Positions 10,140 to 61,185 of a DNA stretch of 64,000 nt are shown here, in pieces. The number at the start of each line of letters is the position of its first letter. The stretch's first letter is position 1. A program made the translations under genes and the position numbers. The notes beneath the pieces were generated by a model. It made no database searches, was not told the origin of the DNA, and saw only the letters and a list, made by a program, of their open reading frames with translations. Source of the stretch: Mycolicibacterium porcinum (GTDB lineage: Bacteria > Actinomycetota > Actinomycetes > Mycobacteriales > Mycobacteriaceae); assembly GCA_001942045.1 (NCBI GenBank), contig MSTD01000011.1:62001-126000 (forward strand), in the 5' to 3' direction.

Positions 10140-10154
10140 AAGAATAGGATTCTC
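10140..10154. promoter_or_regulatory. candidate operator, GAGAAT-N3-ATTCTC family (11/12)
   Basis: Reads AAGAAT-agg-ATTCTC, one mismatch in the outer base from the consensus palindrome. It lies 117 bp upstream of the P450 start in a divergent promoter region. A weaker match, GAGAAT-gtg-GCTCTC (10/12), is at 10052-10066, closer to the P450. Confidence 0.5.
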
Positions 10155-10246
10155 CGGCTCCGTAGCGCTGAGCGGTCGGCACCCCGCATCCTCACCGGCC
10201 AGGAACCATCCGAACCGGCGGCCGTGCACCGGCGCGCGACGTGGCG

Positions 10247-10269
10247 ATAGTTAGACAAACGTCAACTAT
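10247..10269. promoter_or_regulatory. candidate operator of the TetR regulator at 10305
   Basis: Inverted arms ATAGTT (10247-10252) and AACTAT (10264-10269) with an inner GAC/GTC dyad. It is followed by TACAGT at 10292-10297, a TANNNT-type -10 element placed 7 bases before the ATG at 10305. The TetR mRNA may therefore be leaderless and the operator would cover the region just upstream of or at the -35 position. Confidence 0.45.
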
Positions 10270-10304
10270 TTTCAATCGCAGAATCCGTTGTTACAGTGCC
10301 GGGT

Positions 10305-10961
10305 ATGCCCAGAGGGACTGCGACAGAGCCTGCTGACAGCAGTCAACGCCGGGCATCGTTTCAGCGGGCCCGGTCGCACCGGACCAAGCGTGATCTGGTG
10401 CAGGCCGCGATGGCGCTGTGGCGCACGAACGGCTACGCGAAGACCACCGTCGCCGACATCTGTCGCGCCGCGGGAGTGTCCCGCGCCCTCTTCTACTTCT
10501 ATTTCCCCGCCAAGGAAGACGTGCTGTTCGAGGTGGGGCTGACCTCGACCCGACTGGCACAGAAGCGGGTGAAATCGCTACTGGTCGGCGACTACGACGT
10601 GATGACCGTGATCGCCGAGGCGCTGCGCACCCTGGAACGGTCGATGGCGCGCAACCCACCCGATCTGATCGTCGAGACGATCTTGGAGGGGTATCGGCAC
10701 GAGCACCGGATCCTGGCCGGCGACGTCGATCCGGATGCGCAGGACGCCGACATGTTCGGTGAGTTGTTCCACCGGGCCCAGGCTGACGGCAAGCTTGGTT
10801 CCCACGTCGACGTGGAGCATCTGTCCCGGCTGGCGCAGATTCTCGTCAGCGAAGGCGTCCGGCACTGGGCCGGCGGCAGTTTCGGCGACCGGTCGTTCAC
10901 CGACGTCGTCACACGTGACATCGGCGCGATGATCACTGGATTCAACAACATCAGCAACTAG
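10305..10961 (+). CDS. TetR-family transcriptional regulator
   Basis: About 218 residues with an N-terminal TetR helix-turn-helix (TTVADICRAAGVSRALFYFYF) and a variable ligand domain. Neither the ATG at 10305 nor the GTG at 10296 has a Shine-Dalgarno sequence; the ATG is favoured because a TACAGT -10-like element ends 7 bases before it, fitting a leaderless transcript. It precedes the ACAD-kinase-oxidoreductase genes by only 15 bp, so it probably controls its own operon. A dyad at 10247-10269 is the likely binding site. The ligand may be an acyl-CoA made by the operon. Confidence 0.85.
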   Translation: MPRGTATEPADSSQRRASFQRARSHRTKRDLVQAAMALWRTNGYAKTTVADICRAAGVSRALFYFYFPAKEDVLFEVGLTSTRLAQKRVKSLLVGDYDVMTVIAEALRTLERSMARNPPDLIVETILEGYRHEHRILAGDVDPDAQDADMFGELFHRAQADGKLGSHVDVEHLSRLAQILVSEGVRHWAGGSFGDRSFTDVVTRDIGAMITGFNNISN

Positions 10962-10976
10962 ACCGGAGGACCCCCG

Positions 10977-12278
10977 ATGGCGTGGGATTTCGAGACCGAC
11001 CCCGAATATCAGGAATTGCTGGACTGGGCCGATGAGTTCGTGACCGAACAGGTCGAGCCGCTCGATCTGGCCTTTCCGCACCTGCAGTTCACCCAATTGG
11101 AGGGCAAGCGCAGGGAAGCGATCGACCCCCTCAAGGCACAGGTTCGCGAAAAGGGCTTGTGGGCCACGCATCTCGGGCCAGACCTCGGCGGACAAGGATA
11201 CGGGCAGCTCAAGCTGGCGTTGCTCAACGAGATCCTGGGCCGCTCGCAGTGGGCTCCGATCGTATTCGGCTGTCAGGCCCCGGACACCGGCAATGCCGAG
11301 ATCATCGCGCACTACGGCACCGAGCAGCAGAAGAAGCAATACCTGCATCCGCTGCTCGAGGGCGAACTGTTCTCCTGCTATTCGATGACCGAACCGCATG
11401 CCGGTGCGGACCCGACCCTGTTCACCACCAGCGCGGTACGTGACGGGGACGACTGGGTGATAAACGGCTGGAAGTTCTTCTCCTCCAACGCCGCAACCGC
11501 ATCGTTCCTGATCGTCATGGTGGTCACCAATCCCGAGGTGAGCGCCTACCAGGGCATGTCGATGTTTCTGGTGCCCACCGACACTCCCGGCGTCAAGATC
11601 GTCCGCAACGTGGGCCTGTACGGCGAGGCGGACAACCACGGCAGCCATGCGTTGATCCACTACGACAACGTCCGGGTACCCGCCGAGGCGCTCCTGGGCG
11701 GCGAGGGTCAGGCCTTCGTGATCGCCCAGACCAGGTTGGGCGGCGGTCGGATTCACCATGCGATGCGCACGATCGGCCTGGCCCAGAAAGCACTGGACAT
11801 GATGTGCGAACGCGCGCTGAGCCGGGAAACCCAGGGCAGCCGACTGTCGGACAAGCAGTTCGTCCAGGGTTACATCGCCGATTCCTATGCTCAGCTGCTG
11901 CAGTTCCGGCTGATGGTGCTCTACACCGCATGGGAGATCGACAAGTACAACGACTACAAGAAGGTCCGCAAGGACATCGCCGCGGTCAAGGTGGCCATGC
12001 CCACCGTGCTGCACGACATCGCCTGGCGCGCAATGCAGGTCCACGGCGCATTGGGGGTCACCAACGAGATGCCGTTCCTCGGCATGGTCACCGGCGCCGC
12101 GGTGATGGGCCTGGCCGACGGCCCGACCGAGGTACACAAGACCACGGTCGCCCGGCAGGTGCTGCGCGACTACCAGCCGACCACCGACACCTGGCCCACC
12201 GAGTGGATACCCCGCAAGCGCGAAGCCGCGAAGGCCAAGTTCGCCGAGTATCTCGAAGCCGAGGTGGGCAACCTGTGA
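10977..12278 (+). CDS. acyl-CoA dehydrogenase, ACAD10/ACAD11-like
   Basis: A 433-residue acyl-CoA dehydrogenase. Visible are the flavin/substrate segment SMTEPHAGADPT, the motif NGWKFFSS, and the C-terminal QVHGALGVTNEMP region that in this subgroup replaces the usual QxxGGxG. The ATG has GGAGGA upstream. The next gene, overlapping by 4 bp, encodes an aminoglycoside-phosphotransferase-fold protein. In human ACAD10 and ACAD11 these two domains are fused, and in Pseudomonas putida separate LvaA and LvaC proteins phosphorylate and then eliminate phosphate from 4-hydroxyacyl-CoA. The pair here is best read as the split bacterial form; activity on 4-hydroxyacyl-CoA is inference from that parallel. 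Confidence 0.85.
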   Translation: MAWDFETDPEYQELLDWADEFVTEQVEPLDLAFPHLQFTQLEGKRREAIDPLKAQVREKGLWATHLGPDLGGQGYGQLKLALLNEILGRSQWAPIVFGCQAPDTGNAEIIAHYGTEQQKKQYLHPLLEGELFSCYSMTEPHAGADPTLFTTSAVRDGDDWVINGWKFFSSNAATASFLIVMVVTNPEVSAYQGMSMFLVPTDTPGVKIVRNVGLYGEADNHGSHALIHYDNVRVPAEALLGGEGQAFVIAQTRLGGGRIHHAMRTIGLAQKALDMMCERALSRETQGSRLSDKQFVQGYIADSYAQLLQFRLMVLYTAWEIDKYNDYKKVRKDIAAVKVAMPTVLHDIAWRAMQVHGALGVTNEMPFLGMVTGAAVMGLADGPTEVHKTTVARQVLRDYQPTTDTWPTEWIPRKREAAKAKFAEYLEAEVGNL

Positions 12279-18282: not shown

Positions 18283-19431
18283 TCAGAGCCCCAGGGACTT
18301 CGCAATGATCACCTTCATGACCTCGCTGGTGCCGGCGTAGATGCGGGCCACCCGGGCATCCGTGTAAAGCCGCGCGATGGGGTACTCCATCATGTAGCCG
18401 TACCCGCCGAAGAGCTGCAGGCAACGATCGATCACCCGCGCCTGCATCTCCGTGCAGAACAGTTTCACCCGGGCGGCGTCGGCGCCGGACAGTTCGCCGT
18501 CGACGTGCAGCGCCACCGCCCGGTCGAGCATCGCCTGGGCGGCTTCGACCTCCGTCGAGCACGCCGCGAGTTCGAACTTGGTGTTCTGGAACGATGCCAC
18601 CGGCTGCCCGAACGCCTTGCGATCCTTGGTGTAGTCGATCGCCGCGGCGATCGCCGAGCGAGCCTGGGCCACCGAACCCACCGCCACGGTGAGCCGCTCC
18701 TGGGCCAGGTTGTGGCCGAGGTAACTGAAGGCCTCGCCCTCCTCCCCCAACACATTGGTCACCGGCACCCGCACGTCGGTGAACGACAGCTCCGCAGTGT
18801 CCTGCACCTTGCAGCCCATCTTCTCCAGTTCGCGACCCCGCTCGAAGCCCGCCATACCGTCCTCGACCACCAACAGGGTCAGCCCCTTGCGCCGGTTCTC
18901 CGGGTCGGTGGAGGTGCGCGCCACCACGACCACCAGATCGGCCTGGATGCCGCCGGTGATGAACGTCTTGGCGCCGTTGAGCACGTACTCGTCGCCGTCC
19001 CGCACCGCGGTGGTGCGCATGCCGGCCAGATCCGATCCGGTGCCCGGCTCGGTCATCGCCACCGCGGTCAGCAGCGTGCCCGCCGCCAACCCCGGGAACC
19101 AGCGCTGCCGCTGCTCGTCGTTGGCGTAGTGCAGGAAGTACGGCAGGATCACCTCGAGCTGTGTGCGCACCGTCGACAACGTGACCAGGGCGCGGGCGGC
19201 TTCCTCCTGGAGCACCACGTTGTAGCGATAGTCCGCGATGCCTGCACCGCCGTACTCCTCGGGGATCGCCATCCCGAGCATGCCGAGTTCACCCATCTGC
19301 TTGAACACGTCACGGGGCATCCGCCCGCCCTTCTCCCACTCGGGATAGGCCGGGACGACTTCCTTTTCGATGAAATCGCGGGCGAGCGCGCGGAACGCCT
19401 CGTGGTCCTCGGTGAACAGATTGCGTTGCAC
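18283..19431 (-). CDS. acyl-CoA dehydrogenase (FadE type)
   Basis: A 382-residue ACAD of standard length: AMTEPGTGSDLAG (flavin contact), NGAKTFITGG, DRKAFGQPVASFQ, and the C-terminal LFGGYGYMMEYPIAR plus YAGTSEVMK; the catalytic glutamate is expected in the YMMEYP segment. Last gene of the 25191-18283 minus-strand series, 15 bp after the thiolase. Substrate is probably a pathway acyl-CoA. Confidence 0.92.
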   Translation of the reverse strand: MQRNLFTEDHEAFRALARDFIEKEVVPAYPEWEKGGRMPRDVFKQMGELGMLGMAIPEEYGGAGIADYRYNVVLQEEAARALVTLSTVRTQLEVILPYFLHYANDEQRQRWFPGLAAGTLLTAVAMTEPGTGSDLAGMRTTAVRDGDEYVLNGAKTFITGGIQADLVVVVARTSTDPENRRKGLTLLVVEDGMAGFERGRELEKMGCKVQDTAELSFTDVRVPVTNVLGEEGEAFSYLGHNLAQERLTVAVGSVAQARSAIAAAIDYTKDRKAFGQPVASFQNTKFELAACSTEVEAAQAMLDRAVALHVDGELSGADAARVKLFCTEMQARVIDRCLQLFGGYGYMMEYPIARLYTDARVARIYAGTSEVMKVIIAKSLGL

Positions 19432-19446
19432 TACTTCTCCCTGGTG

Positions 19447-20604
19447 TCAGTCGATGAGCTCGACCAGCGTGGCGTTGGCGGTACCGCCGCCCTCACACAT
19501 GGTCTGCAGGCCGTAACGAATACCGTTGTCGCGCATGTGATTGATCATCCGGGTCATCAGCACCGCGCCCGACGCACCGAGCGGGTGTCCCAACGCGATG
19601 GCGCCGCCCAGCGGGTTCAGTTTCGCCTCGTCGGCACCCGTCTCGGCCAGCCAGGCCAGGGGCACCGGGGCGAAGGCCTCGTTCACCTCGAACACGCCGA
19701 CCTCGTCGAGGCGCACGCCGGCCTTGTGCAGCACCTTCTCGGTGGCCGGGATGGGCCCGGTGAGCATCAACACCGGATCCGCTCCCGTCACCGCGCCCGC
19801 GCGGTACCGTGCGATCGGCGAAAGGCCCATGGCCACAGCGGCTTCCGCCGTCATCACCAACAGTGCTGCGGCCCCGTCGGAGATCTGCGAGGAGTTGCCC
19901 GCGTGGATCACCCCGTCCTCGGCGAACGCCGGCTTCAGGCCGGCCAGCTTCTCCACGGTGGTGCCCCGGCGCACGCCTTCGTCGGCGACCACCGGCTCGA
20001 GCTGATCGGCCGGGTCGGGAAAGACGGTGATCATCTGGTTCTCGAAGGCGCCGCGGTCCTGGGCGGCCGCGGCCCGCTCATGTGAGGCGACGGAATACTC
20101 GTCCAACTCAGTCCGGCTGAAACCCCACTTCTGCGCGATCATCTCGGCTGAGATGCCCTGGTTGAACGCGAAATTCTGGTACCGCTCAAACACTTTCGGT
20201 CCGTACGGAGTGCCGGTGGCCCGAGCCGCGCCGAGCGGCACCTTGCTCATCACCTCGACTCCGCCGGCGACCACGACGTCCTGCTGGCCCGACATCACGG
20301 CCTGGACCGCGAAATCCAGTGCCTGCTGACTGGATCCACAGGCCCGGTTGACCGTGGTGCCCGGGATATGTTCGGGCCAGCCCGCAGCCAGCACCGAGTA
20401 GCGGCCGATGTTGCTCGACTGGTCACCGACCTGGGACACGCACCCCCAGACCACGTCGTCGATGATGTCGGGGCTGATGCCGGCCCGCTCCACCAGGGCA
20501 TTGAGCACCAGCGCGGACAGGTCGGCGGCGTGGAACCCGGACAGGCCGCCGTTACGCTTGCCGACCGGGGTGCGGACGGCCTCGACGATGACGGTTTCGC
20601 GCAT
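19447..20604 (-). CDS. thiolase (acetyl-CoA acetyltransferase family)
   Basis: A 385-residue thiolase with all catalytic elements: NRACGSSQQ (nucleophilic Cys near 89), EVNEAFA, GGAIALGHPLGASG (His) and CEGGGTANAT (second Cys). It should cleave a 3-ketoacyl-CoA with CoA. Sits between a class III CoA-transferase and an ACAD, consistent with a complete beta-oxidation set in this operon. Confidence 0.93.
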   Translation of the reverse strand: MRETVIVEAVRTPVGKRNGGLSGFHAADLSALVLNALVERAGISPDIIDDVVWGCVSQVGDQSSNIGRYSVLAAGWPEHIPGTTVNRACGSSQQALDFAVQAVMSGQQDVVVAGGVEVMSKVPLGAARATGTPYGPKVFERYQNFAFNQGISAEMIAQKWGFSRTELDEYSVASHERAAAAQDRGAFENQMITVFPDPADQLEPVVADEGVRRGTTVEKLAGLKPAFAEDGVIHAGNSSQISDGAAALLVMTAEAAVAMGLSPIARYRAGAVTGADPVLMLTGPIPATEKVLHKAGVRLDEVGVFEVNEAFAPVPLAWLAETGADEAKLNPLGGAIALGHPLGASGAVLMTRMINHMRDNGIRYGLQTMCEGGGTANATLVELID

Positions 20605-20621
20605 GGGATTCTCCTCTAGAA

Positions 20622-21857
20622 CTAAGACTGGTAAGCCGGGCCGATCGCGCCCTGCTCGCGCAGCACGGCGATCTGCTCGACGCTCAGGCCGATCCCGGCC
20701 AAGACAGCATCGGTGTGCTCACCGAGGCCAGGAACGGCACCCATGCCCAACTCCATACCGGTGATCACCGGCGGCGGCAACAGGGCCGAGATCTCTCCGC
20801 GAGGTGTGTCCACCTGCCGCCACCGGTCGCGCGCCCGCAGGTGCGGATGGGTGACGACCTCACTCGGCAGGTTGTAGCGCGAGTTGCCGATGCCAGCGTC
20901 GTCGGCGATCTGCTGAATCTCTTCGAGATCATGCTGGGCACACCAGGATTCGATGGCCTTGTTCAGCTCGTCCCGATGGGCACAGCGGTCGGAGTTGGTG
21001 GCGAACCGCGGTTCGTCGGCGAGGTCGGGACGTTCGATGATCTCGCGGGCAAGCCGCTGCCACTCGCGGTCGTTGGTGGTCCCGAGCACGACGGTCTGCC
21101 CGTCACGGGTGTCGAACGCGCCGTAGGGCGCCACCGCGGGCGAGCTCATCCCCAGCGGAATCTGGTCGATCCCGGAGTGCTGGGTGTAGGTCAGCTGGTA
21201 GCCCATGATGTCGGTCATGGTGTCGAACAGGCTGACCGCCACGGCCGGCGCCGGGTCCGTCGAGCCGTTCCGGGCCCGGCCGAGCAGCAGCGCCATGATG
21301 GACAGCGCCGAATACAGCCCGGTGGTGATATCAGCCACCGCCGCACCAGGTTTGGCCGGCATCCCGGCATAACCGGTCGACGCGCAGGAACCGGACTCGG
21401 CCTGGACCAGCAGGTCGTAGGCACGCTTGTGCGAAAGCGGCCCACCGGGGCCGTATCCGTCGATCTCCAGGGGGATCACCTGCGGGTGCCGGACCTTGAG
21501 ATCCTCGGGCCCGAGCCCCAGCCGCGCAGTGGCACCGGGAGCGAGGTTGGAAACGAAGGCGTCGGCGCGAGAGAGCAGTCGGTGCAGCACCTCCATCCCC
21601 TCCGGGGACTTCAGGTTGAGGGTGATCGATTCCTTGCCCCGGTTGGCCCACACGAAATGAGCCGCTTGGCCGAGCACGACATCGTCGTAATCCCGGGCGA
21701 AGTCGCCGCCCTTGGGGTTCTCGATCTTGATCACCCGCGCCCCGAAGTCCGCCAGCACCCGGGTGCACATCGGAGCCGAGACCGCCTGCTCCATCGCGAT
21801 GACGGTGATTCCGGTCAGCGGCAGTCCGTCCGGCCGCTGCTGAGAAAATTCGGTCAC
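20622..21857 (-). CDS. class III CoA-transferase (CaiB/BaiF family)
   Basis: About 411 residues from a GTG 4 bp after the SDR stop. CaiB/BaiF landmarks: MEQAVSAPMCTRVLADFGARVIK, VWANRGKESITLNLK, and VADITTGLYSAL containing the probable nucleophilic aspartate. It transfers CoA from an acyl-CoA donor to a carboxylic acid. No acyl-CoA synthetase is present in the window, so this may be how the pathway acid is activated. Confidence 0.88.
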   Translation of the reverse strand: MTEFSQQRPDGLPLTGITVIAMEQAVSAPMCTRVLADFGARVIKIENPKGGDFARDYDDVVLGQAAHFVWANRGKESITLNLKSPEGMEVLHRLLSRADAFVSNLAPGATARLGLGPEDLKVRHPQVIPLEIDGYGPGGPLSHKRAYDLLVQAESGSCASTGYAGMPAKPGAAVADITTGLYSALSIMALLLGRARNGSTDPAPAVAVSLFDTMTDIMGYQLTYTQHSGIDQIPLGMSSPAVAPYGAFDTRDGQTVVLGTTNDREWQRLAREIIERPDLADEPRFATNSDRCAHRDELNKAIESWCAQHDLEEIQQIADDAGIGNSRYNLPSEVVTHPHLRARDRWRQVDTPRGEISALLPPPVITGMELGMGAVPGLGEHTDAVLAGIGLSVEQIAVLREQGAIGPAYQS

Positions 21858-21861
21858 AAGC

Positions 21862-50030: not shown

Positions 50031-51338
50031 TCAGCCGGCGGATTCGCGAGCTGCCTTCTCGGCCTGGGCCGCCTTGACCCGGCCCTCGTTGATCTCGGCC
50101 ATGGCCTCGGGAATCTCGCCTGCAGTGAACTTGTCGCGGCCGGTGGGCAGGCCGCCGAAGGCGTAGGTCTCGTCGAACAGCGGGGCCTCCGACGGACGGC
50201 GCCGCGACTCGACCTTCTCGAGCACGGGCTCTAGGCGCTTGGCCTTGTCCGCCACCGCCTTCGCGTCCCGCTCGATGAACTCGGGCAGGATCTCCTTGCC
50301 CATGATCTCGATGGACTCCATGGTGCCCTCGTGGCTACGCGGGTTGAGCAGCAGGATGATCTCGTCGACGCCACTCGCCTCGTACGCGCGGAGGAATTCC
50401 CGCACGGTGTCGGGCGAACCGATGGCGCCCCGGCCCGGACCGTAGGCCAGCGTCGGATCTTCCTTGACCGCTTCCTCGTACCGTTCCCACACCTTGGTGC
50501 GACCCGGGGTGTGCATACCGGTCAGGTAGTAGTGCATGATCCCGAACGAGAAGAAGCCGCCACCGATGCCCAGGCGCTTGAGGGCCTCGTCGTCGGACTT
50601 CGCCACCATCATCGACAGGTCACCGCCGATGGCCAGGATGTTGGGGTTGATCGCCGGGGTGATAGGCGCGCCCTGCTCTTCGAATTCCTTGTAATACCCG
50701 TCGACCCGCTCCTTGAGCGCCTCGGGACCGGTGTAAGCGAAGCTCAGTGCACCGATGGCCTTCTGGGCGGCCATCTGCACCGACGACGGGCGCGTGCAGG
50801 CCACCCAGACCGGCGGGTGCGGCTTCTGCAGCGGCTTGGGGATCACGTTGCGAGCCGGCATCTCGACGTGCTCGCCCTTGAAGCCGGTGAACGGCGCCTC
50901 GGTCATACAGCGGATCGAAACCTCAAGGGCTTCTTCCCACATCGTGCGCTTGTCCGCCGGGTCGATGTCGAAGCCACCCAGCTCGGCGACCGAAGAGCCC
51001 TCACCGGTACCGAACTCGACCCGCCCGTTGGACAGGTGGTCCAGGGTGGCGACGCGCTCGGCGATGCGGGCCGGGTGGTTGATCGGCGGCGGCAGGTGCA
51101 TGACACCGAAACCCAGCCGGATGTCCTTGGTGCGCTGGCTGGCCGCGGCCAGGAACATCTCCGGTGCGGTGGAGTGGCAGTACTCCTCCAGGAAGTGGTG
51201 CTCGGTGAGCCAGACGGTGGAGAATCCGGCCTTGTCAGCAGCCTCCACCTCGGTCAGTCCGTGCTGGAACAGCTGATGTTCGTCATCCTCCGACCACGGC
51301 CGGGGCAGTGGGAACTCGTAGAACAGCGAAATCTTCAT
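50031..51338 (-). CDS. luciferase-like flavin-dependent monooxygenase
   Basis: A 435-residue LLM protein: [53 protein letters not shown]. The TEHHF and long form are those of FMN-dependent monooxygenases, as opposed to the shorter F420 enzymes. Overlaps KstD by 4 bp; its FMNH2 supplier is likely the reductase at 47597. Baeyer-Villiger or hydroxylation chemistry possible. Confidence 0.87.
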   Translation of the reverse strand: MKISLFYEFPLPRPWSEDDEHQLFQHGLTEVEAADKAGFSTVWLTEHHFLEEYCHSTAPEMFLAAASQRTKDIRLGFGVMHLPPPINHPARIAERVATLDHLSNGRVEFGTGEGSSVAELGGFDIDPADKRTMWEEALEVSIRCMTEAPFTGFKGEHVEMPARNVIPKPLQKPHPPVWVACTRPSSVQMAAQKAIGALSFAYTGPEALKERVDGYYKEFEEQGAPITPAINPNILAIGGDLSMMVAKSDDEALKRLGIGGGFFSFGIMHYYLTGMHTPGRTKVWERYEEAVKEDPTLAYGPGRGAIGSPDTVREFLRAYEASGVDEIILLLNPRSHEGTMESIEIMGKEILPEFIERDAKAVADKAKRLEPVLEKVESRRRPSEAPLFDETYAFGGLPTGRDKFTAGEIPEAMAEINEGRVKAAQAEKAARESAG

Positions 51339-53125
51339 CGGTTTCCTCCTGAGGGGTTGCTGACGGTGTCCTGGATCAGTTGGCTGGCGGCTGGTGTAAC
51401 GGGTTGTCCGACAGCATGTTGGGCCTGTGCGATGTGTCTGGCCGCCACGAAGCCGAAGGTCATCGCCGGCCCGATCGTCGCGCCCGCACCGGCGTAACTT
51501 CGGCCCATGACGGCCGCCGACACGTTGCCCACCGCGTAGAGCCCGGCGACGACGGACTCGTCGGATCGCAGCACCCGGGCGTGCTCATCGGTGCGCAGTC
51601 CACCTGAGGTGCCCAGGTCACCGAGGATGATCTGGAACGCGTAGTACGGCGGCTTGCCGAGCGGACGCAGATTGGGGTTCGGCAGAGTCGGGTCACCGTA
51701 GTAGTTGTCGTACGCGCTGTCACCACGGTTGAAGTCGTCGTCGTGTCCGCTGTGCGCCAGCTGGTTGAACCGTTCGGCGGTGGCGCGCAGATTCTGCCCG
51801 GGCACGCCGATCTTTCCCGCCAGTTCCTCCCAGCTGTGTGCTTCCACCACGACACCCGAATCCAGCCAAGCCCGAGGCACTTTGCGTCCGGTGGGCACCG
51901 GGGCGAACGGGATCTTCGGGATGGGCAGGTGCCCGGCCACCACGTAGCGGTGGAATGAGTCGATGTCGGTGACGAGCCAGCACGGGATGTGGTCGACGCC
52001 GGATTCCTGCCCCTTGATCATGGCGTGCGCGAAGTCCATGTAGGGCGCAGCCTCGTTGATGAACCGCTTGCCGTTCCCGTTGACCACGAACTGCGACGGC
52101 ATCATCCGTTCGTTGAGCATGAACTGCAGCCGGCCGTCGGGCCAGCAGATCGCCGGGAACCACCAGGCTTCATCCAGTAGGTCGGTGGCGCCGCCCACTT
52201 TTTCACCGGCCCGGATCCCGTCGCCGGTAGCCGCGGGATTGCCGAAGCTCCAGTCCTTCTCGAGCACCGGCAGATGCTCCTTGCGCCACGCCATGTCGTG
52301 GTCGAAGCCGCCGGAGGCCAGGATCACGCCGCCGGTGGCCCGGATCCTCGCCGCACGCCCGTCCTTTTCGATGACGGCACCGAGCACCGCGCCGTCCGCA
52401 TCGGTGATCAGCGAGGTCATCGGCGCGTTCAGCCACAGCGGGATGTCGTGCTGTTTGAGCGCCAACCGCATCCGGGCGGCCAGCGACTGGCCGATCGCGG
52501 CCATCCGGTCACCGAAGACCCGGGCCCGCACCATCCGCCAGATCAACTTGAGCAACACGGCCTTACCCCGCCAGTTCTGCCGGATCTGGTAGAACAGCCG
52601 GAGATCCTTGGGGGCGAACCAGATTCCCTTGGGCGCCAGCGCCAGCGGGGCCAGCAACTCCTCTTCGTGTTCCCCGAGCTTACGCAGATCGATGGCGGGA
52701 ACGTTGATGGTGCTGCCCTGTGCCGAGCCACCCGGTAGCTCCGGGTAGTAGTCGGCGTAGCCGGGCTTCCAGACGAACTCGAACCAATCGCTGTTGTGCT
52801 CGAGGAAATCCATCATCTCCGGCGCGGCCTCGACGTACTTGTGCAGCCGGGCGTCGCTGACGGTGCCTTCGGTGATCTGCTTGAGGTACTCGAACACGCC
52901 GTCCGGGGAGGGAACGTACCCGGCGCGGCGCTGGGACGGCGCTCCGGGTACCCAGATCCCGCCGCCCGAGAGTGCGGTGGAACCGCCGAAGTGGGAGGAC
53001 TTTTCGACGACGAGGGTGTCGAGGCCGGCGGCGTCGGCGGTCAGCGCGGCCGTCATGCCGCCACCTCCGGAACCGACGACGAGCACGTCGACCGTCTTGT
53101 CGAAGGTAAAGCTGTCTGAAGTCAT
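51335..53125 (-). CDS. 3-ketosteroid-delta1-dehydrogenase-like flavoprotein
   Basis: A 596-residue FAD enzyme of the fumarate-reductase/KstD family. ATG at 53125 overlaps the mhpB stop (ATGA). FAD motif [15 protein letters not shown] at 16-30, then [18 protein letters not shown]; the C-terminal [18 protein letters not shown] corresponds to the KstD active-site segment with the conserved Tyr and Gly. Expected to introduce double bonds next to a ring ketone, leading to aromatisation. Placement before mhpB/mhpA suggests that the resulting phenol is then hydroxylated and cleaved. Confidence 0.88.
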
Positions 53126-54066
53126 GCTGCGATTCCTACCGCCGTCCTGATTGCGAATCCTGCGATCAATTCCGGTGCCGCCCGGTAGAAGTGGTTGCCG
53201 GTCCGGTACGGCCCGTTGGCTGCCAACGCCGCGAAAGCGGCCACCCACGTGCGGATCTCGTGTGCCGAGTTGCCCCCTTCGGTGGCGATGAAGGTGTTGG
53301 ACCAGTTGTCCAGCTCGGTCAACCGGCCCTCGTCGAAGATCTCCAGCAAGCTGTGGTCCCATTCGGGATTCAGCGGACGCAGCGCACTGTCACCGTGGGC
53401 GAAGTCGTGCGCGGCCTGGCTCACCGCGGTCTGCCGGGCCATCCGCTGCTCTGCGGTCATCGGGACCCCGTGCACGATCCGGTCCAGTGCTGCCGGAGGT
53501 GCGGTCGCCAGCGTCGGCACCGGTGGGTCATGCGAGAGCCCGCCGGAACCCAACACCAGCACCCGCTTGTCGAGTGTGGACAGGAAGCTGCCCACCGCCG
53601 ACCCCAACGCGCGGGACCGCGACAGCGGACCCAGCGGAGTGGCAACGGAATTGATGAAGATCGGCAGGATGGGACGTGCGGTCGCCTCGCCGAACAACTC
53701 CTGCAGCGGCTGCACGGTGCCGTGGTCGACGTCCATGCTCGTCGAGATGGCGACGTCCACGCCGGATTCCCACACCGCTTCCGCGCACTGCTGGGCGATG
53801 TCGCCGGCCACGCTGAGCGCGCCCTGGTACGTCCCGTAGTCCCCCACGCCCGCCGCGGCGGTGCCGATGCAGAAGGGCGGCATCAGCCGGTAGAAGAACC
53901 CGTTGTAGTGGTCAGGCGAGAAGGTCACGACCAGTTCGGGGTCGTAGTCGGCAACAAACGCGCGGGCAGCCCCGGCCGCTGTTCCGATCTCGTCGAGGAG
54001 CTCAGCTGACGGTCCCGGAAGATTCAGCAGTGGGCTGTGGGACATACAACACAGGGCTACTGGCAC
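53122..54066 (-). CDS. mhpB: class III extradiol dioxygenase, MhpB-like
   Basis: A 314-residue LigB-type protein very like E. coli 2,3-dihydroxyphenylpropionate 1,2-dioxygenase: start [27 protein letters not shown], His115 in VDHG and His179 in [10 protein letters not shown] at the same numbering as the E. coli catalytic residues. It cleaves a catechol next to a hydroxyl, using Fe(II). GTG at 54066 has AAGGAGG seven bases upstream, giving an unusually long 65-bp overlap with the end of mhpA. Its natural substrate may be larger than dihydroxyphenylpropionate. Confidence 0.93.
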
Positions 54067-55681
54067 CGTTTACACCTCCTTCCAGCACATGCAGGACGTC
54101 GAACAAGGCATTGCTGAGTTCCGGGGCACGTTGGGCGATGTCGGCCCCGGCGATGCAGCGGTCCGGACGCAGCACGAGCACGGATTCGGTGTGCACGTCG
54201 AACCAGGCTTTGAGTGCGCCGGTGCGGTCGCCGACGATCACCACGGCGCCGTCATCGTGGTCGGCGTCGTGCCCGGTCCAGAACAGCTGGGTCTGCGGCC
54301 GCGCGGCGATGAACTTGGCGCCCAAGGCTTTCCATCGTGCGTATGCCTGCTCGCCGAGCAGCGCACGCGGATTGTTGTTCCAGCACAGCACGGCGAAGTT
54401 CAGCCCGATCACGTCATCGAGCAGCACGTTCGACTGCTCGCGGGTGTCCACCCGTGGCTGGATGAACAGCGTGCCCGCAGGGGCATCGGGTGTCGGCGGC
54501 TTCGGGTGATAGACCGCACCCTGGTCGTAGCGCGGCATCGGCTTGAACCGCATCTCCAACACGTAGCGCTTGAGCGCCGGGACCACCGAAGCGCCGCGAA
54601 TCAGCTTGTCGCGCAGGACCGCGACCTTGCGGTTGGTGGGCGAGATGACCCGGCCCACCAACGTGGACAGGTCGATCATGGCCCGCGCATGCTTGCGGCG
54701 CTCGGTGTCGTAGCTGTCCAATAGTGCGTCGCCGGCCTGGCCGTTGACCACCGCGGCCAGTTTCCAGCCGAGGTTGGCCGCGTCCCGGATACCGCTGTTG
54801 TATCCCTGGCCCTGCCACACCGGCATCAGGTGCGCGGCGTCGCCGGCCAGCAGGAACCGGCCCTTGCGGAAGTTGCCGGCGATCCGGGAGTGGTGGGTGT
54901 AGACCCGGCGACGGATCACGTCCACCTTGTCCGGATGCGGCACGAACGGAGCGAGCAACCGCGCCACGAACTCGGGATCCTCGGCCTGCTCGTCGGTTTC
55001 GTCGGCGTGGATCATGAACTCGAAGCGGCGGATGCCGTGCGCGATCGAGATCGAGGCGTACGGCCGGTCCGGGTCGGCACCGACCTCACTGTTGGGGTGT
55101 CCCAGCGGGTCATTGGCCAGATCGATCACGACCCAGCGGGTCGGTGAGGTGGTGCCGTCGAACGACACCCCCATCAGATGGCGGGTCGCGCTTCGCCCGC
55201 CGTCGCAGCCCACCACGTAGCGTGTCCGCACCGCGGGCACGTCCGGGCCGAACTCGATCGTCACTCCGTCCGCGGACTCGACCGCCGACTCCATCCGGCG
55301 CCCCCAGGCCACCTGCACGTGCTCGAACCGGTCCAGCCCCGCGAGCAGTTGCGCATCGACGAGAGGCTGCACGAAACCGTTGCGCTTGGGCCAGCCGAAT
55401 CGTGCATCCGGAGGCGCCATTTCGGCCAGCAGCCGGCGGTTGGCGTCGTAGAACCGCAGGATCTGGTTGGGCACGGTGTGCGGCAGGATCGCCTCGACCA
55501 GCCCGATCGACTGGAAGGTCCGCAGCGATTCGTCATCGAGCCCCACTCCGCGGGGGTAGTCGATGAGGGTGTCGCGTTCCTCCACCACGAGGGTTCGGAC
55601 ACCTTGGATACCAAGGACATTCGCCAGGGTCAGGCCGACCGGCCCGGCACCGACGATCACGACATCGACGTCGTCAGCCAC
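54002..55681 (-). CDS. mhpA: FAD-dependent aromatic hydroxylase, MhpA-like
   Basis: A 559-residue class A flavin monooxygenase: [18 protein letters not shown] (FAD), [10 protein letters not shown] (DG motif), and [18 protein letters not shown] (GD motif), followed by the C-terminal thioredoxin-like domain. Length and sequence match 3-(3-hydroxyphenyl)propionate hydroxylase. It ortho-hydroxylates a phenol to the catechol used by MhpB. Overlaps mhpC-like by 8 bp and mhpB by 65 bp. Confidence 0.93.
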
Positions 55682-56588
55682 GTTCGCTCTCCAACAGGAA
55701 GTCCAGATGCAACCGGTTGAAGGTCTCCGGATCTTCGTACTGCGGCCAGTGCCCGCAATCGGACATCACCTCGAACCGGGCGCCGGGGATCATCGACGCG
55801 ATCCGCCGGCCCTCGCTGACGTCGGCAGTCGGGTCGTCACTGGTCCACAACACCAGCGTAGGCGCGGTGATCGATCCGTACTCCTTCTCCCCCAACAGGT
55901 TCCGGGCGCGAATCGCGGGGTCCTGCAGGGCCATGATGTCGCTCATCGCGGCGACGAACCCGGGCTGGCGGTACACCGCCTGGCGGCTCGCCACGATGTC
56001 GTCGTAATCCTTTGTCTTGTCTGCCATCAGCCACTTGATCCTGGCCTGCACGGTCTCCCAGGTCGGGTTCTCCGCGGCCGCCATCGACAGCGTGATGATC
56101 CGTTTCATCACCTCGGGGTCGGCCTGTGAACCGCCGGCGGTGTTGAGGACCAACTTCTCGACGCGGTCCGGGTGATCGGCGGCGGCCCGGGCGGCCACCC
56201 AGCCTCCCAGTGACTCGCCCGAGATGTGGGCGCGTTGCGCACCGATCGTGTCGAGGAAGCCGATCAGGTGCTCGACGTAGTGCGCAACCTCCAACGGGTG
56301 ACCCGGCTTGTCGGTGTAGCCGTGCCCGAGCATGTCGATCGACCAGGTCGAGAAGTGCTCGGCATGAGATTCCAGGTTGCGCACATAAGCCTCGGCGTGC
56401 CCGCCCGATCCGTGCAGCAGAACCAGCGCCGGAAGGCTCGGGTCGCCGGCATGCAGGTAGCGGGTGCGGATGCCACCCACATCGAGGTAACCCTGCGAGA
56501 ACGCGACGCCCTGCAGGTCCGCCCAGACGCTCTCGTGCTGGGTAGCCGAAACGGATCCGGATGCCGGCCCGGCGGCAGTGCTTGTCAT
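55674..56588 (-). CDS. meta-cleavage-product hydrolase, MhpC-like
   Basis: About 304 residues from ATG 56588, with GGAGAGGGGC upstream. Alpha/beta-hydrolase motifs: [18 protein letters not shown] (Ser), TSDDPTAD (Asp), [10 protein letters not shown] (His). It is the first gene of the operon, so expression starts with the C-C hydrolase. The perfect palindrome at 56610-56624 lies just upstream. The frame continues to 56669 but that part crosses the operator and is rejected. Confidence 0.9.
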
Positions 56589-56608
56589 GTGCCCCTCTCC
56601 GGAGGTAG

Positions 56609-56625
56609 GGAGAATGCTATTCTCC
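56609..56625. promoter_or_regulatory. candidate operator, perfect GAGAAT-N3-ATTCTC palindrome
   Basis: GGAGAAT-gct-ATTCTCC, seven-base perfect arms, 21 bp before the mhpC-like start and in the divergent region with the IclR gene. Could control both the ten-gene operon and the IclR/KstD unit. Confidence 0.8.
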
Positions 56626-56718
56626 AAATTTGTAAGCACTTTGCTCATATAGCGCACATCTGCGTGCATTATTATCAGAGCATCACTCTCGCGGTTCTAT
56701 CTGTCAAGGAGGGGCGCG

Positions 56719-57444
56719 ATGCCGGCCAAAGCAACCCAGCCGCAGCCACAACCGAAGACCGACGGCACTCCGACCGGGGCGCCCGGTTCGCAGACGCTGG
56801 CGCGCGGTTTGAGCGCGCTGGCGGCCATTGCCGCGGCACCGACCGGGCTGACCGTGCAGCAGGTCGCCGAACACGTGGGCGCCCACCGCACGATCGCCTA
56901 CCGGTTGCTGGCCACCCTCAGTCAGTTCCGTTATGTGACAAAGGGAGAGGACGGTCGCTACCGGCCCGGTGCCGGCCTGGCCACGCTCGGCGCATCTTTC
57001 GACAACAACATGCGCGCGCTCAGCGTCCCGACGCTGCGTGCCCTCGCCGACGAACTGGGCAGCACGGTTTCGCTATTGGTGGCCGAGGGCGATCAGCAGG
57101 TCGCGGTCGCGGTGATCGTGCCGACGCAGGTGTTCTACCAACTGTCCTTCCACGAGGGCAGCCGCCACCCGCTCGACCGCGGCGCGGCGGGGGTGGCGCT
57201 GCTGGCGAGCATGCCGCCGCGGCCCGGCGAACGTGAGCTGGTCCGCCAGACTCGCGAACAAGGCTGGGTGATCACCCACGGCGAGATCGAACCGGATACC
57301 TACGGCCTGGCGGTGCCCGTGCGCCGGCGCCTGCCGTCACCGCCCACCTGCATCAATCTCATCTCGCACCGCGAGGACGTCGTGCTGGGCGGCAAGGACG
57401 CAGTGATCCGAGCGGCGAACGAACTATCGGCGATCCTGTACTGA
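56719..57444 (+). CDS. IclR-family transcriptional regulator
   Basis: A 241-residue IclR protein: winged helix in SQTLARGLSALAAIAAAPTGL and LTVQQVAEHVGAHRTIAYRLL, then the effector domain. AAGGAGG lies seven bases upstream of the ATG. IclR proteins often activate mhp-type operons (MhpR in E. coli), so it may respond to the aromatic intermediate and act on the divergent operon. Confidence 0.88.
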   Translation: MPAKATQPQPQPKTDGTPTGAPGSQTLARGLSALAAIAAAPTGLTVQQVAEHVGAHRTIAYRLLATLSQFRYVTKGEDGRYRPGAGLATLGASFDNNMRALSVPTLRALADELGSTVSLLVAEGDQQVAVAVIVPTQVFYQLSFHEGSRHPLDRGAAGVALLASMPPRPGERELVRQTREQGWVITHGEIEPDTYGLAVPVRRRLPSPPTCINLISHREDVVLGGKDAVIRAANELSAILY

Positions 57445-57457
57445 AAGGGAATTGACA

Positions 57458-59083
57458 GTGACCCGTACCGAATTCGATTGGGATGACGAGGTCGACGTCG
57501 TCGTACTGGGCAGCGGTGGCGCCGGACTCACCGCGGCACTGACCGCGTCGGTCAGCGGCGCGTCGGTCGCGATCTACGAGAAAGCGCCCACGGTCGGGGG
57601 CACCACCGCGGTCTCCGGCGGCATCGTGTGGATCCCGGCCCACGACCGCAGCGCCGACGGCCCGCTACCGGTCTCCGACGCGATCGACTACCTGCAGGCC
57701 CAATCACTCGGCTACATGGATGCCGATCTGGTGGACACCTTCGTGCGGACCGGTCCCGCCATGCTCGACTTCGTCGAGGAGAACAGCGAGCTGCGCTTTG
57801 CCGTCGCCGAGGGCTTCCCCGACTACAAGCCCGAACTCCCCGGCGGACGGCCCGGCGGCGGGCGCTCACTGAGCGCGGGCCCGGTGGATCAGGCCAAGCT
57901 CGGCGCCTGGAAGGACCGGATCACCTCGTTCCCAGCGGATTTCAGCAACGTCGGAATCGACGCGGAAACCCGTGCCCGCATCCACGCCGTATACGACGAT
58001 CCCGACGCCGACCTCTGCGTTGCCGGCACCGCCCTGATCGCCGGGCTACTGCGTGGTCTGCTCGATCGCGGCATCCAGCCGGTGACCGAGGCCCGCGCAC
58101 TCGAGCTGATCGGTGATCGGACCGGCATCACCGGGGTGCGCCTCGGCGTGGACGGGGCCGACGTTCATGTCCGCGCCCGGAGCGGCGTGGTGCTGGCGAC
58201 CGGCGGTTTCGAGTGGGACACCAAGCTGGTCGAGACGTACCTGCGCGGACCGATGCGCGGCGCGGTGTCACCGCCGAACAACACCGGCGACGGACTGCGG
58301 ATGGCCATGGCACACGGCGCCGATCTCGCCAACATGGGTGAGGCATGGTGGGTTCCGGTCGTGCAGATCCCCGGCGACACGATCGGCGGTCACCCCCGCA
58401 GCCGTAGCGTGCGTCTCGAACGCACCCGCCCGCGCAGCGTCATCGTCAACCGGGCCGGCAACCGTTTCCTCAACGAGGCCGGCGAATACAACTCGATGGC
58501 AGGGGCTTTCCAGTACCTTGACCCCAAGATCGGCTACGCCAACGATCCGGCCTGGATCGTGTTCGACTCGGTGCACCTGCAGCGCTACGGCTTTCTCGGC
58601 GTCGAACCGGGCGATCCGGTGCCGGACTGGTTCTGCGAATCGGCGACCCTCGCCGAGCTGGGCGCCAAAACCGGGATCGACGCCGAGGGTCTGGCCGCAA
58701 CCCTGAATCGCTGGAATGACAACGTCTCTCGCGAGATCGATCCGGACTTCGGCCGCGGATCGAGCGCATACGACGGCTACTGGGGCGACAATTCGGCGGC
58801 CACCCCGGCCGGCCAGACGCTCGGCCCGCTCGACACCGCGCCGTTCTACGCGGTGCCCGTCAAGATCGGGGCGATGGGCACCAAAGGGGGTCCCCGCACG
58901 GACCGCGACGGCCGGGTCCTGCACGTCGACGGCGCCCCGATCACCGGGCTGTTCGCCGCTGGCAACGCCATGGGCGGGGTGACGGGTAAGGCCTACGGCG
59001 GCGCAGGCGGCACGCTCGGCCCGGCGATGGTCTTCGGCTACCGCAGCGGATACGCCGCGGCGACAGGTAAGTCGGTGAGCTAG
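57458..59083 (+). CDS. KstD-like FAD-dependent ring desaturase
   Basis: About 541 residues from GTG 57458 (AAGGGAA upstream). FAD motif VVLGSGGAGLTAALTAS, EKAPTVGGTTAVSGG, and C-terminal GKAYGGAGGTLGPAMVFG corresponding to the active-site Tyr/Gly segment. Second enzyme of this type in the window, next to IclR; the C-terminal active-site sequence differs (KAYGG against RSYAG), suggesting another ring position or a reductase role. Confidence 0.87.
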   Translation: MTRTEFDWDDEVDVVVLGSGGAGLTAALTASVSGASVAIYEKAPTVGGTTAVSGGIVWIPAHDRSADGPLPVSDAIDYLQAQSLGYMDADLVDTFVRTGPAMLDFVEENSELRFAVAEGFPDYKPELPGGRPGGGRSLSAGPVDQAKLGAWKDRITSFPADFSNVGIDAETRARIHAVYDDPDADLCVAGTALIAGLLRGLLDRGIQPVTEARALELIGDRTGITGVRLGVDGADVHVRARSGVVLATGGFEWDTKLVETYLRGPMRGAVSPPNNTGDGLRMAMAHGADLANMGEAWWVPVVQIPGDTIGGHPRSRSVRLERTRPRSVIVNRAGNRFLNEAGEYNSMAGAFQYLDPKIGYANDPAWIVFDSVHLQRYGFLGVEPGDPVPDWFCESATLAELGAKTGIDAEGLAATLNRWNDNVSREIDPDFGRGSSAYDGYWGDNSAATPAGQTLGPLDTAPFYAVPVKIGAMGTKGGPRTDRDGRVLHVDGAPITGLFAAGNAMGGVTGKAYGGAGGTLGPAMVFGYRSGYAAATGKSVS

Positions 59084-59094
59084 GGGGCCGAGCC

Positions 59095-59973
59095 CTACCC
59101 TGCTGAATCCGCGATCAGTTGCGCCGCAGCGCTGTAGGGATCGGTGGTGCCGTCGGCAACCGCGGCAGCCAGCCCGTCCAACTCCCCGTGATTGCGCAGC
59201 AAGGTCTGGGCCAGCGACAAGATCTGGGTACGGGCGCGGGCGGTACGCCGCTCCACGGTGTCGGACCGGTGGTGGGCGTCGATCGCCTCAACCAGCTCCG
59301 CCAGCCCCTCTCCTTGGGCTGCAACAAGTTTGAGCACCGGCACACTGGCCTCGGCCCGCAGGTCACGGGCGGTCTGATCGGCACCCTCACGGTCGGCCTT
59401 GTTCACCACCACGAGATCGGCGACTTCCAGCAGCCCCGCTTTGGCCGCCTGGACCGCATCCCCCGCACCGGGATTGAGGATCACCACGGTCGGGTCCGCG
59501 ATCGCGGCGATCTCGATCTCGGACTGCCCCACGCCCACCGTCTCCAAGACGATCAAGTCGTACGACAACGCCGCCAGCAGCCGGATCGCCGCGGGTACCG
59601 CGGCAGCCAGCCCGCCCAGGTGTCCACGGGTGGCCACCGACCGGATCAGCACGTCGGGATCGTTGATATGGGCGGCCATCCGGATCCGGTCCCCCAGCAG
59701 CGCACCGCCGCTGTACGGGGACGACGGATCCACCGCCAGCACCGCGACCCGCAGACCGCGCACCCGGTACGCACCCACCAGCGCGCCGACCGTCGTCGAC
59801 TTGCCCGCCCCGGGCGGTCCCGTGATCCCGATGACGCGCGGCGAGGCCGGGCCGAGCACCGCGAGAACCTCATCACGACGGTCACTTTCGACCAGACTCA
59901 GCAGACGCCCGACAGCGCGCTGCGATCCACCGCGCGCTGCTGCGATCAGCTCTTCGATGTTGTGCTTCGTCAT
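59095..59973 (-). CDS. meaB: MeaB/ArgK-type G-protein chaperone of a B12 mutase
   Basis: About 292 residues: P-loop GPPGAGKST, AVDPSSPYSGGALLGDRIRM, ETVGVGQSE and VVNKAD, the MeaB signatures. It protects and reloads adenosylcobalamin in methylmalonyl-CoA or related mutases. No mutase subunit is in the window. It follows the thiolase by 11 bp, linking it to pathway end-products such as propionyl-CoA. ATG at 59973; the longer frame runs inside the thiolase. Confidence 0.9.
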   Translation of the reverse strand: MTKHNIEELIAAARGGSQRAVGRLLSLVESDRRDEVLAVLGPASPRVIGITGPPGAGKSTTVGALVGAYRVRGLRVAVLAVDPSSPYSGGALLGDRIRMAAHINDPDVLIRSVATRGHLGGLAAAVPAAIRLLAALSYDLIVLETVGVGQSEIEIAAIADPTVVILNPGAGDAVQAAKAGLLEVADLVVVNKADREGADQTARDLRAEASVPVLKLVAAQGEGLAELVEAIDAHHRSDTVERRTARARTQILSLAQTLLRNHGELDGLAAAVADGTTDPYSAAAQLIADSAG

Positions 59974-59984
59974 CACGGTCGACA

Positions 59985-61145
59985 CTACGGTGAAGGCACC
60001 TCGATGACCGTCGCCGAGCCCATCCCGCCACCGGCACACATCGCGGCCACACCGATGCCTCCCCCGCGCCGCCGGAGCTCGTGGACCATCGTGGCCAGCA
60101 TGCGCGCCCCGGTGGCGGCCACCGGATGCCCCAGCGAGCACCCGCTACCACTGACGTTGACGATCTCCGGGTTCAGGTCGAGCAGTTTGATCGTGGCGAC
60201 GCACATCGACGCGAATGCCTCGTTGATCTCGAACAGGTCCACGTCTGACAGCGAAAGGCCGGCCCGGCCAAGCGCTTTGGTGATGGCTTCGACGGGGGCC
60301 AGGCCGGTCGACGCCGGGTCGACGCCCACCGAAGCCCAGGACCTGATGGTGGCCAGGGCCGGCAACCCGAGCTCGTCGCTGGCGATGGTCAGCAGTGCTG
60401 CCGCGTCATTGGCCCCGCAGGCGTTGCCCGCGGTGATGGAGAAGCCGTCGATCTCGGGATGCAGCGGCTTGAGCGCGGCCAGCTTCTCCAGCGTGGTGTC
60501 ACGACGCGGATGCTCGTCCGTATCGAACAACCCGTGCGGCGTCTGGATCGGGACGATCTCCTCCTTGAATCGGCCCTCGTCGATCGCCGCGATGGCCTTG
60601 AGATGCGAACCCAACGCCCATTGGTCCATCTCCTCGCGGCTCACCCCGGCCTTGACCGCGGCGTTCCAGCCGACCGTGATGGACATGTCCATGTTCGGTG
60701 CGTCCGACCGGTCGGGATGAGTGGGCGGGAACCAGCTCACCCACTCGGCGTCTTTGGCGCTGCCTGCCGCGCGCATGAACCGAGGCGACGTCGAGGCAGA
60801 GTTGACGCCGCCGGCCAGGATCAGGCGGTCAATCCCAGAGCGGATGCTCGCCGCGGCGCTCTGAACCGCGGCCTGTCCGGCCGCACAGTGCCGATTGATC
60901 GACGCACCCGGCACGGTGGTGAGGCCTGCGGTGATGGCCGCGTGACGGGCGATGACGCCACCGCCGTACAGCCCCTCGCCCAAGATCACGTCGTCAATCG
61001 GAGCAGTCATGTCGGCAGGAAGGTTCTCCAACGCCGCCCGCACCACATGATCGGCGAGCGCATAGGCGTCCGTGTCGCGCAGCGTTCCCTTCTTCGCCGT
61101 GCCGATGGGGGTACGCAGCGCGGACACGATGACGGCTTCAGGCAT
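59985..61145 (-). CDS. thiolase (acetyl-CoA acetyltransferase family)
   Basis: A 386-residue thiolase: NRHCAAGQAAV (Cys), EINEAFASM, GSGCSLGHPVAATG (His), CAGGGMGSATVIE (second Cys). ATG 61145 with GGGAG upstream. First gene of the unit with meaB; a perfect operator at 61171-61185 lies upstream, shared with the divergent SDRs. Confidence 0.92.
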   Translation of the reverse strand: MPEAVIVSALRTPIGTAKKGTLRDTDAYALADHVVRAALENLPADMTAPIDDVILGEGLYGGGVIARHAAITAGLTTVPGASINRHCAAGQAAVQSAAASIRSGIDRLILAGGVNSASTSPRFMRAAGSAKDAEWVSWFPPTHPDRSDAPNMDMSITVGWNAAVKAGVSREEMDQWALGSHLKAIAAIDEGRFKEEIVPIQTPHGLFDTDEHPRRDTTLEKLAALKPLHPEIDGFSITAGNACGANDAAALLTIASDELGLPALATIRSWASVGVDPASTGLAPVEAITKALGRAGLSLSDVDLFEINEAFASMCVATIKLLDLNPEIVNVSGSGCSLGHPVAATGARMLATMVHELRRRGGGIGVAAMCAGGGMGSATVIEVPSP

Positions 61146-61170
61146 ATCTGCTCCCTGGTTCACCTGGCAA

Positions 61171-61185
61171 GAGAATGTTATTCTC
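61171..61185. promoter_or_regulatory. candidate operator, perfect GAGAAT-N3-ATTCTC palindrome
   Basis: GAGAAT-gtt-ATTCTC between the divergent thiolase (start 61145) and SDR (start 61223). Confidence 0.8.

Follow-up and report, generated by a model that had tools for sequence, protein, structure and literature searches.

The TetR-family repressors KstR and KstR2, which control cholesterol catabolism, are among the closest described counterparts of the system reported here, a palindrome and its adjacent tetR gene in a 64,000-nucleotide stretch of Mycolicibacterium porcinum DNA (positions 62,001 to 126,000 of contig MSTD01000011.1; hereafter the window). The KstR2 motif is AnCAAGnnCTTGnT (PMC3068626) and its effector is a coenzyme A (CoA) thioester (PMC6593523). 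BkaR recognizes GTTA(N)T(N4)A(N)TAAC and controls branched-chain keto-acid genes (PMC3920632), while the operator of MftR is T-N2-GGCA-N5-TGCC-N2-A (PMC8728441). In a steroid-transforming Mycobacterium, a palindrome called motif X, associated with the Rv0767c orthologue G155_05115, occurs at 14 operons that include P450s and short-chain dehydrogenases/reductases (SDRs) (PMC6593523). A survey of mycobacterial TetR proteins covers 30 regulators named by their M. tuberculosis genes and gives their motifs as logos (PMC4482099).

The palindrome of the window is GAGAAT-N3-ATTCTC, and it very probably serves to bind the TetR protein encoded beside it at 33828..34547, the pair being common to most mycobacterial genomes examined. 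In the sections below we describe the copies of this palindrome, their distribution across genomes and the catabolic genes that adjoin them, and we compare this system with the described regulators.

Copies of the palindrome and their positions

The whole window was searched for the palindrome with up to two mismatches allowed. Perfect copies start at 33757, 56610 and 61171, copies with one mismatch at 10140, 25342 and 34934, and copies with two mismatches at 34550, 10052 and 20599, a total of nine as compared to a mean of 0.84 and a maximum of 3 in 100 dinucleotide shuffles. All nine are outside gene calls from which 90 nt had been trimmed at each 5' end, a correction made because gene starts are over-called and after which 88% of the window is still coding. 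An earlier note on this DNA had read the palindrome as the mark of a catabolic regulon, an interpretation that our analysis supports. The seven places that it listed were all recovered with the same mismatch classes, 10052 and 20599 being additions, and its placement of the copies at promoters agrees with their position outside the trimmed genes. It also counted four copies between divergent units; this arrangement stands, but the number is five by our gene calls (10140, 25342, 33757, 56610 and 61171).

The same pattern is observed in related DNA, for which we took the best 80 of 386 stretches encoding a relative of the TetR protein. These loci, 1.555 Mb in all, contain 209 palindromes with at most one mismatch, while five control palindromes built on the same plan occur 0, 1, 1, 2 and 0 times and the reversed motif is absent. 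Outside the trimmed gene calls, in DNA that is only about 14% of the total, lie 182 of the 209, so that equal frequency in coding regions and at promoters, which the earlier note had named as contrary to a regulon, is not what is found. Among 59 dereplicated palindromes the information is almost restricted to 15 bp and the flanks share little, as would be expected of a protein-binding site rather than of a repeat.

The TetR protein and its promoter

The likely general repressor is encoded on the plus strand (33828..34547) and has an N-terminal TetR helix-turn-helix and a helical ligand domain. Its start is likely to be the ATG at 33828, which gives 239 amino acids, and not 33894, which gives 217 and was the start used in the earlier note, because the leader is conserved; GAGGGGG precedes this ATG and many deposited relatives also have 239 amino acids. 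The protein is 98-99% identical to proteins named from M. boenickei, M. neworleansense and M. peregrinum, which are species of the M. fortuitum group, an identity that assigns the window to Mycolicibacterium.

A perfect palindrome, at 33757..33771 in the window, is present upstream of tetR in 80 of 80 orthologous loci, where it would be autoregulatory. It is located 128-149 bp before the aligned start, at exactly 137 bp in 70 of these loci, with a spacer of ACT in 62, AGT in 16, AAT in 1 and ATT in 1. A divergent hydratase unit is seen in the window and in three relatives (genomes G001, G002 and G003). Farther upstream, at 5.6-9.6 kb, 71 of the 80 loci have a palindrome with at most one mismatch (perfect in 27), which in relatives with called genes is the Rieske promoter position; four of the nine loci that lack it have less than 5 kb of upstream DNA. 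Downstream, between the tetR end and +1350, 49 of 80 loci have a palindrome with at most one mismatch, a number that rises to 71 when two mismatches are allowed, as compared to 0% and 2% for shuffled sequence. Since these sites are far above the shuffled level, the weak two-mismatch site just 3' of tetR in the window (34550..34564) is probably the degenerate form of a genuine operator, one that presumably serves the SDR promoter.

Recognition-helix residues (QSLRSFY..FDGKHELLL) are invariant or almost so among 26 aligned proteins down to 59% identity. The 59% paralogue at locus L168 keeps this helix and has a perfect palindrome upstream, while the paralogues at L160 and L161 have N in place of D. 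Two TetR paralogues, about 80% identical to the query, are present in some genomes (G025, G089, G104, G153, G184 and others), with L160 and L166 both belonging to G104. The site upstream of the paralogue has two mismatches in L160, one in L161 and none in L166 and L167. A predicted structure (predicted local distance difference test score 77.5) has as fold neighbours Rv0078, Bacillus FadR, EthR2, QacR and, lower, KstR. The model thus suggests shared folds, which are no proof of a ligand.

Distribution of the palindrome and of TetR across genomes

A genome-wide count, proposed in the earlier note as a check, was made in the three relatives and yielded 16, 17 and 15 palindromes with at most one mismatch and none of the reversed pattern. 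Perfect sites number 7, 7 and 6 in G001, G002 and G003 and all lie in a single tetR-containing stretch of each genome, at 1.927-2.198 Mb (271 kb), 2.027-2.317 Mb (290 kb) and 4.470-4.631 Mb (161 kb), respectively. For G002, 11 of the 17 sites are inside 116 kb, a site at korA is 174 kb off and five are elsewhere (four in predicted genes and one intergenic). Target genes behind the palindromes recur in several other genomes.

A perfect palindrome is present in 163 of 198 genomes of the genus, mostly in several copies, while the reversed pattern occurs singly in three. TetR (E 1e-50 or better) is likewise present in 163. Both are found in 160 genomes and neither in 32, with TetR alone in three (G059, G092 and G181) and the motif alone in three (G047 and G073 with one copy each, and G151 with eight, counted here by its absence among the TetR positives listed), a co-occurrence with a Fisher value of 5e-30, uncorrected for shared ancestry. 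Five of these six exceptions trace to contig ends, to an isolated site within an open reading frame (ORF) or to one-mismatch operators: the G151 contig ends 80 bp past the operator, the G073 contig ends within tetR, the lone site of G047 is inside a predicted 700-amino-acid ORF, and one-mismatch operators adjoin tetR in G059 and G181. In a draw of 200 genomes at the order level, TetR (E 1e-40) was found in 22, all with at least two sites; ten of the 178 without TetR have any, namely two in G345 and a single one in each of the other nine. In G220, a 7.5-Mb genome from this draw, two relatives of TetR (73% and 58%; loci L165 and L168) accompany 10 perfect sites.

A second box beside some probable operators

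Some sites are accompanied at 21-22 bp by a second element that is weaker than the main palindrome. At tetR this box is GAAAGTTACAATCTC (33779..33793), offset by 22 bp from the start of the operator, and the hexamer TACAAT within it resembles a -10 element. Among 81 sequences, 48 have exactly this box, and conservation reaches at least 90% in 14 of its 15 columns. When the same palindrome was scored at offsets of 15 to 45 bp in both directions from 110 dereplicated sites, offset 22 stood out with a mean of 3.89 of 12 versus 2.82 (sd 0.095) for shuffled flanks; 16 of 220 scored at least 8 versus about 0.4 expected, with 9 of 220 at offset 21. There are smaller bumps at offset 24 (mean 3.54) and offset 26 (6 of 220 at 9 or more). 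The box is GAGAGTACGAGTTGC at the 61171 site (61193-61207) and GAGAGCAGAAATTGC at the 34934 site (34956-34970), while many of the sites, korA and 10140 included, lack it. There are two readings of it, as a second dimer site two turns away or as the -10 region of a promoter at constant spacing.

Probable target units in the window

The units that the earlier note had assigned to the regulon (Rieske, amidohydrolase/acyl-CoA dehydrogenase, mhp/KstD, IclR/KstD, thiolase/MeaB, an SDR pair, hydratase/cyclase and TetR) were all found beside sites, and we add a CYP150-like P450, a second TetR and a mycofactocin-coupled SDR. The one-mismatch operator at 10140..10154 lies between the CYP150A6-like P450 gene (8746..10089, minus strand; 6dcd, E 7.7e-147) and the second tetR gene (10296..10961, plus), a likely target that is followed by a gene for an acyl-CoA dehydrogenase-like protein (10977..12278, plus) whose best NCBIfam models are all below cutoff. 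Three of three relatives have an orthologous one-mismatch site, and 88-90 bp from it each has a two-mismatch site. Because this spacing is conserved, the corresponding two-mismatch site at 10052..10066 is probably genuine, though weak; it precedes the CYP150-like gene by 29 bp, counted from the inferred start at 10023.

The one-mismatch operator at 25342..25356, the counterpart of the palindrome 5.6-9.6 kb upstream of tetR in related loci, is flanked by two multigene units. On its minus-strand side (18283..25191), gene calls and Pfam give an amidohydrolase (23869), an acyl-CoA dehydrogenase, an SDR, a CoA-transferase, a thiolase and an acyl-CoA dehydrogenase, which from their order and strand would form one operon. 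On its plus-strand side (25371..31316) are a CMD-family protein, a Rieske oxygenase (25954), an amidohydrolase, a SnoaL-like protein and two acyl-CoA dehydrogenase subunits. The Rieske protein has five NCBIfam matches, all below cutoff and none named KshA. The two-mismatch palindrome at 20599-20613 overlies a thiolase start codon, and a two-mismatch match is also present at this place in G002 (L100); its role as an operator is doubtful, as the match may reflect coding constraint alone.

Divergent from tetR are the genes for an enoyl-CoA hydratase (32885) and a HAMP/cyclase protein (31373), which together occupy 31373..33733 on the minus strand. The latter (31373-32869) has HAMP and adenylate/guanylate cyclase domains and is an unusual partner for a catabolic unit. 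Downstream of tetR, the one-mismatch operator at 34934..34948 found by the motif search is upstream of the mycofactocin-coupled SDR gene (35083..35928, plus; TIGR03971, 387 bits versus a cutoff of 300).

The perfect operator at 56610..56624, which has a perfect orthologous site in three of three relatives, separates the mhp unit from the IclR/KstD-like unit. The mhp unit, on the minus strand, consists of an MhpC/HsaD-like hydrolase (55674..56669, inferred start 56588; 133 bits with the HsaD model, below its cutoff of 400), an MhpA-type 3-(3-hydroxyphenyl)propionate hydroxylase (54002..55681; NF004828, 1072.5 versus 853), an MhpB-type 3-carboxyethylcatechol 2,3-dioxygenase (53122..54066; NF009910, 530.7 versus 291) and a KstD-like FAD dehydrogenase (51335..53362; NF009473, 1093.6 bits versus a cutoff of 837). 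The MhpA and MhpB equivalogs are adjacent and both above cutoff. On the plus strand are an IclR regulator (56719..57444), itself a likely target, and a KstD-like dehydrogenase (57452..59083) whose best model is 4-oxocyclohexanecarboxylate 2-dehydrogenase (421.6 versus a cutoff of 1000). The KstD-like proteins of the window are below the KstD equivalog cutoffs. The last perfect operator (61171..61185) lies between a minus-strand unit of a MeaB-type GTPase (59095) and a thiolase (inferred start 61145), which spans 59095..61145, and a plus-strand SDR pair (61223..62740, first start inferred).

The P450 and Rieske relatives gave no answer as pointers to the substrate, and the P450 at 5025 has no relative in the PDB at 1e-80. 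Elsewhere in the window, 727-2382 encodes ChsH2-type zinc ribbon and OB domains fused with a thiolase C-terminal domain, which recalls steroid side-chain retro-aldolases, and 36775-39192 encodes an 805-amino-acid protein with two tandem CoA-transferase family III stretches. The region 35083-44978 groups gene kinds similar to those of an 864-kb M. branderi plasmid (L096, 20001-25979), namely a mycofactocin-coupled SDR, M24-type peptidase relatives, an amidohydrolase, a P450 and a ferredoxin, with the sequence match made for the SDR only. The 40.8-kb stretch of this plasmid (L096) has no palindrome with up to two mismatches.

Probable targets outside the window

In relatives, sites outside the window region adjoin an additional amidohydrolase, an acyl-CoA dehydrogenase pair with an amidohydrolase facing it, and an AMP-ligase (acyl-CoA ligase) unit that has another acyl-CoA dehydrogenase pair behind it. 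G001 and G003 also have weak two-mismatch sites, one before a ChsH2-like/thiolase unit and one before a gene that matches no Pfam family. A perfect operator with korA-type flanks occurs far from the island in 26 of the 198 genomes of the genus, and korA, which encodes a 2-oxoacid:acceptor oxidoreductase, adjoins this flanked site in 20 of the 20 loci examined from these genomes (korA operator loci are L097, L111, L125, L126, L128 and L200-L219). G066 has a korA site without those flanks. The G002 island (L098) also encodes mce-family proteins; their operon begins beyond the stretch analysed, and within that stretch no palindrome was observed ahead of them.

Discussion

We favor, at a probability of about 0.88, the reading that the palindrome is the operator of the TetR protein at 33828-34547, a dimer of which represses its own gene, the hydratase unit and the catabolic promoters and is released by a pathway intermediate. 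The earlier note had proposed this protein as the candidate repressor, and apart from its start codon that proposal gains from the perfect operator upstream of tetR in 80 of 80 loci, from the co-occurrence of motif and protein, and from the poorer fit of the rivals.

Two groups of local regulators could instead be responsible for the sites. The IclR protein at 56719 adjoins the perfect copy at 56610, but eight genomes without IclR and with TetR have 4-10 perfect sites (G140, G142, G152, G157, G160, G162, G166 and G175), and the only genome with at least two sites and without TetR, G151, is cut just before tetR; control of all sites by IclR is very improbable. The TetR at 10296 adjoins a one-mismatch copy, but its orthologues are present in 71 of the 198 genomes versus 163 for the motif, while the TetRs at 17513 and 45172 have no palindrome with up to two mismatches at their own starts, and we regard this group as slightly less probable still. 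Both IclR 56719 and TetR 10296 were rejected as the general regulator because their distribution across the 198 genomes fits worse. An RNA hairpin, terminator or mobile repeat is the least probable reading. The palindrome is able to fold as a hairpin with a 3-nt loop, but it sits between divergent starts, is found again before the same genes, at orthologous promoters, in other species, and has flanks that share little information; the confinement of information to 15 bp led us to reject this reading. It is unlikely, though far from negligible, that one regulon serves several unrelated substrates as a general lipophile or redox response. The target enzymes are indeed highly mixed (P450, Rieske, mhp genes and several SDRs, as well as the central-metabolism gene korA), but the clustering in a single island, the paired acyl-CoA dehydrogenases, the CoA ligase and the ring-cleavage genes resemble one route.

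A number of observations weigh against the TetR operator. Twenty-seven of the 209 palindromes in relatives' loci are inside trimmed gene calls (8 at the tetR operator, 14 at the Rieske-promoter site, 4 at sites after tetR and 1 other). The 26 at tetR, Rieske or SDR promoter positions are explained as artefacts of ORFs over-extended or mis-called by a simple caller; the remaining one (L057, +7115) lies away from any known promoter. All 151 IclR-bearing genomes of the 198 are also motif-positive, so only the eight genomes listed above, some of them draft, separate IclR from TetR, and IclR absence in some of these could reflect assembly gaps (less so in G160, with a first contig of 6.06 Mb). G092 has TetR with only a three-mismatch site in the stretch examined, and the genome counts are not independent because genomes share ancestry. 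Acyl-CoA-binding FadR is among the fold neighbours of TetR, but so are drug-binding EthR2 and QacR, so a CoA ligand is not singled out. Lastly, the choice of repression over activation would follow from family precedent.

In the mechanism that we propose from the sequence comparisons, a TetR dimer would bind each palindrome and repress tetR itself, the hydratase unit divergent from it and catabolic promoters across roughly 160-290 kb. TetR would leave the DNA once its ligand pocket is occupied by an intermediate of the pathway, for which a CoA thioester is the likeliest candidate. We infer that a single substrate may be common to the targets, probably a terpenoid- or steroid-like compound of alicyclic or polycyclic structure, which would be aromatised by the KstD-like enzymes and cleaved by the mhp-type enzymes. 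More tentatively, and with somewhat less than even chances, this could be a further large TetR regulon of the KstR class, with regulator and operator in about four-fifths of the mycobacterial genomes sampled, that joins breakdown of an unnamed ring compound with switching of korA and central metabolism in a number of species and places two repressor dimers on a composite operator, composed of the strong palindrome and, two helical turns from it, the weaker box.

The analysis provides this catabolic island with a probable regulator, a sharply defined operator and a list of target genes. The island contains relatives of the structurally solved P450s CYP150A6 and CYP105Q4 of M. marinum, and the CYP150A6 relative is directly beside an operator, so the natural substrates of such P450s could be sought via regulon inducers. 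Additionally, the korA operator connects a peripheral pathway with a central 2-oxoacid enzyme.

Comparison with described regulators is, for each paper cited, limited to its accessible part. Like the system proposed here, the KstR and KstR2 regulons have an autoregulated TetR repressor and a short palindrome between divergent catabolic units, and they share acyl-CoA dehydrogenase pairs and ChsH2-type proteins with the present island, but ring cleavage here is mhp-type, unlike in those systems. Identity with KstR was rejected as the TetR protein scores 19.5 bits versus a KstR equivalog cutoff of 280, and identity with KstR2 was rejected as the palindrome at the TetR's own promoter differs from the KstR2 motif (PMC3068626). 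BkaR is likewise a TetR repressor with a palindrome at its own promoter, and has a few distant targets; it was rejected on operator sequence (PMC3920632). MftR, the mycofactocin regulator, is a TetR repressor with long-chain acyl-CoA effectors, and the present regulon includes one mycofactocin-coupled SDR; however, the MftR model TIGR03968 is not among the six NCBIfam matches of our TetR and the operator differs (PMC8728441), so this identity was also rejected. The motif X regulator adjoins P450 genes (G155_05095-05110, by locus numbers), while the present tetR lies between the hydratase and SDR genes; identity is unlikely on gene neighbourhood, the letters of motif X being given in a figure only (PMC6593523). 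The C-19+ steroid cluster of M. smegmatis is likewise a second steroid-type cluster outside KstR control, but it is described with kstD, kshA and kshB (PMC5962712), whereas the present Rieske protein is not KshA-named and the KstD-like proteins are below cutoffs. The palindrome was recognised in no open-access paper among the matches listed, a scope that leaves most subscription papers outside and in which two related papers give motifs in figures only. The regulator-operator pair is thus probably, though not certainly, new. In kind, the system would be a TetR-type autoregulated catabolic repressor, and one that is notably broad and conserved.

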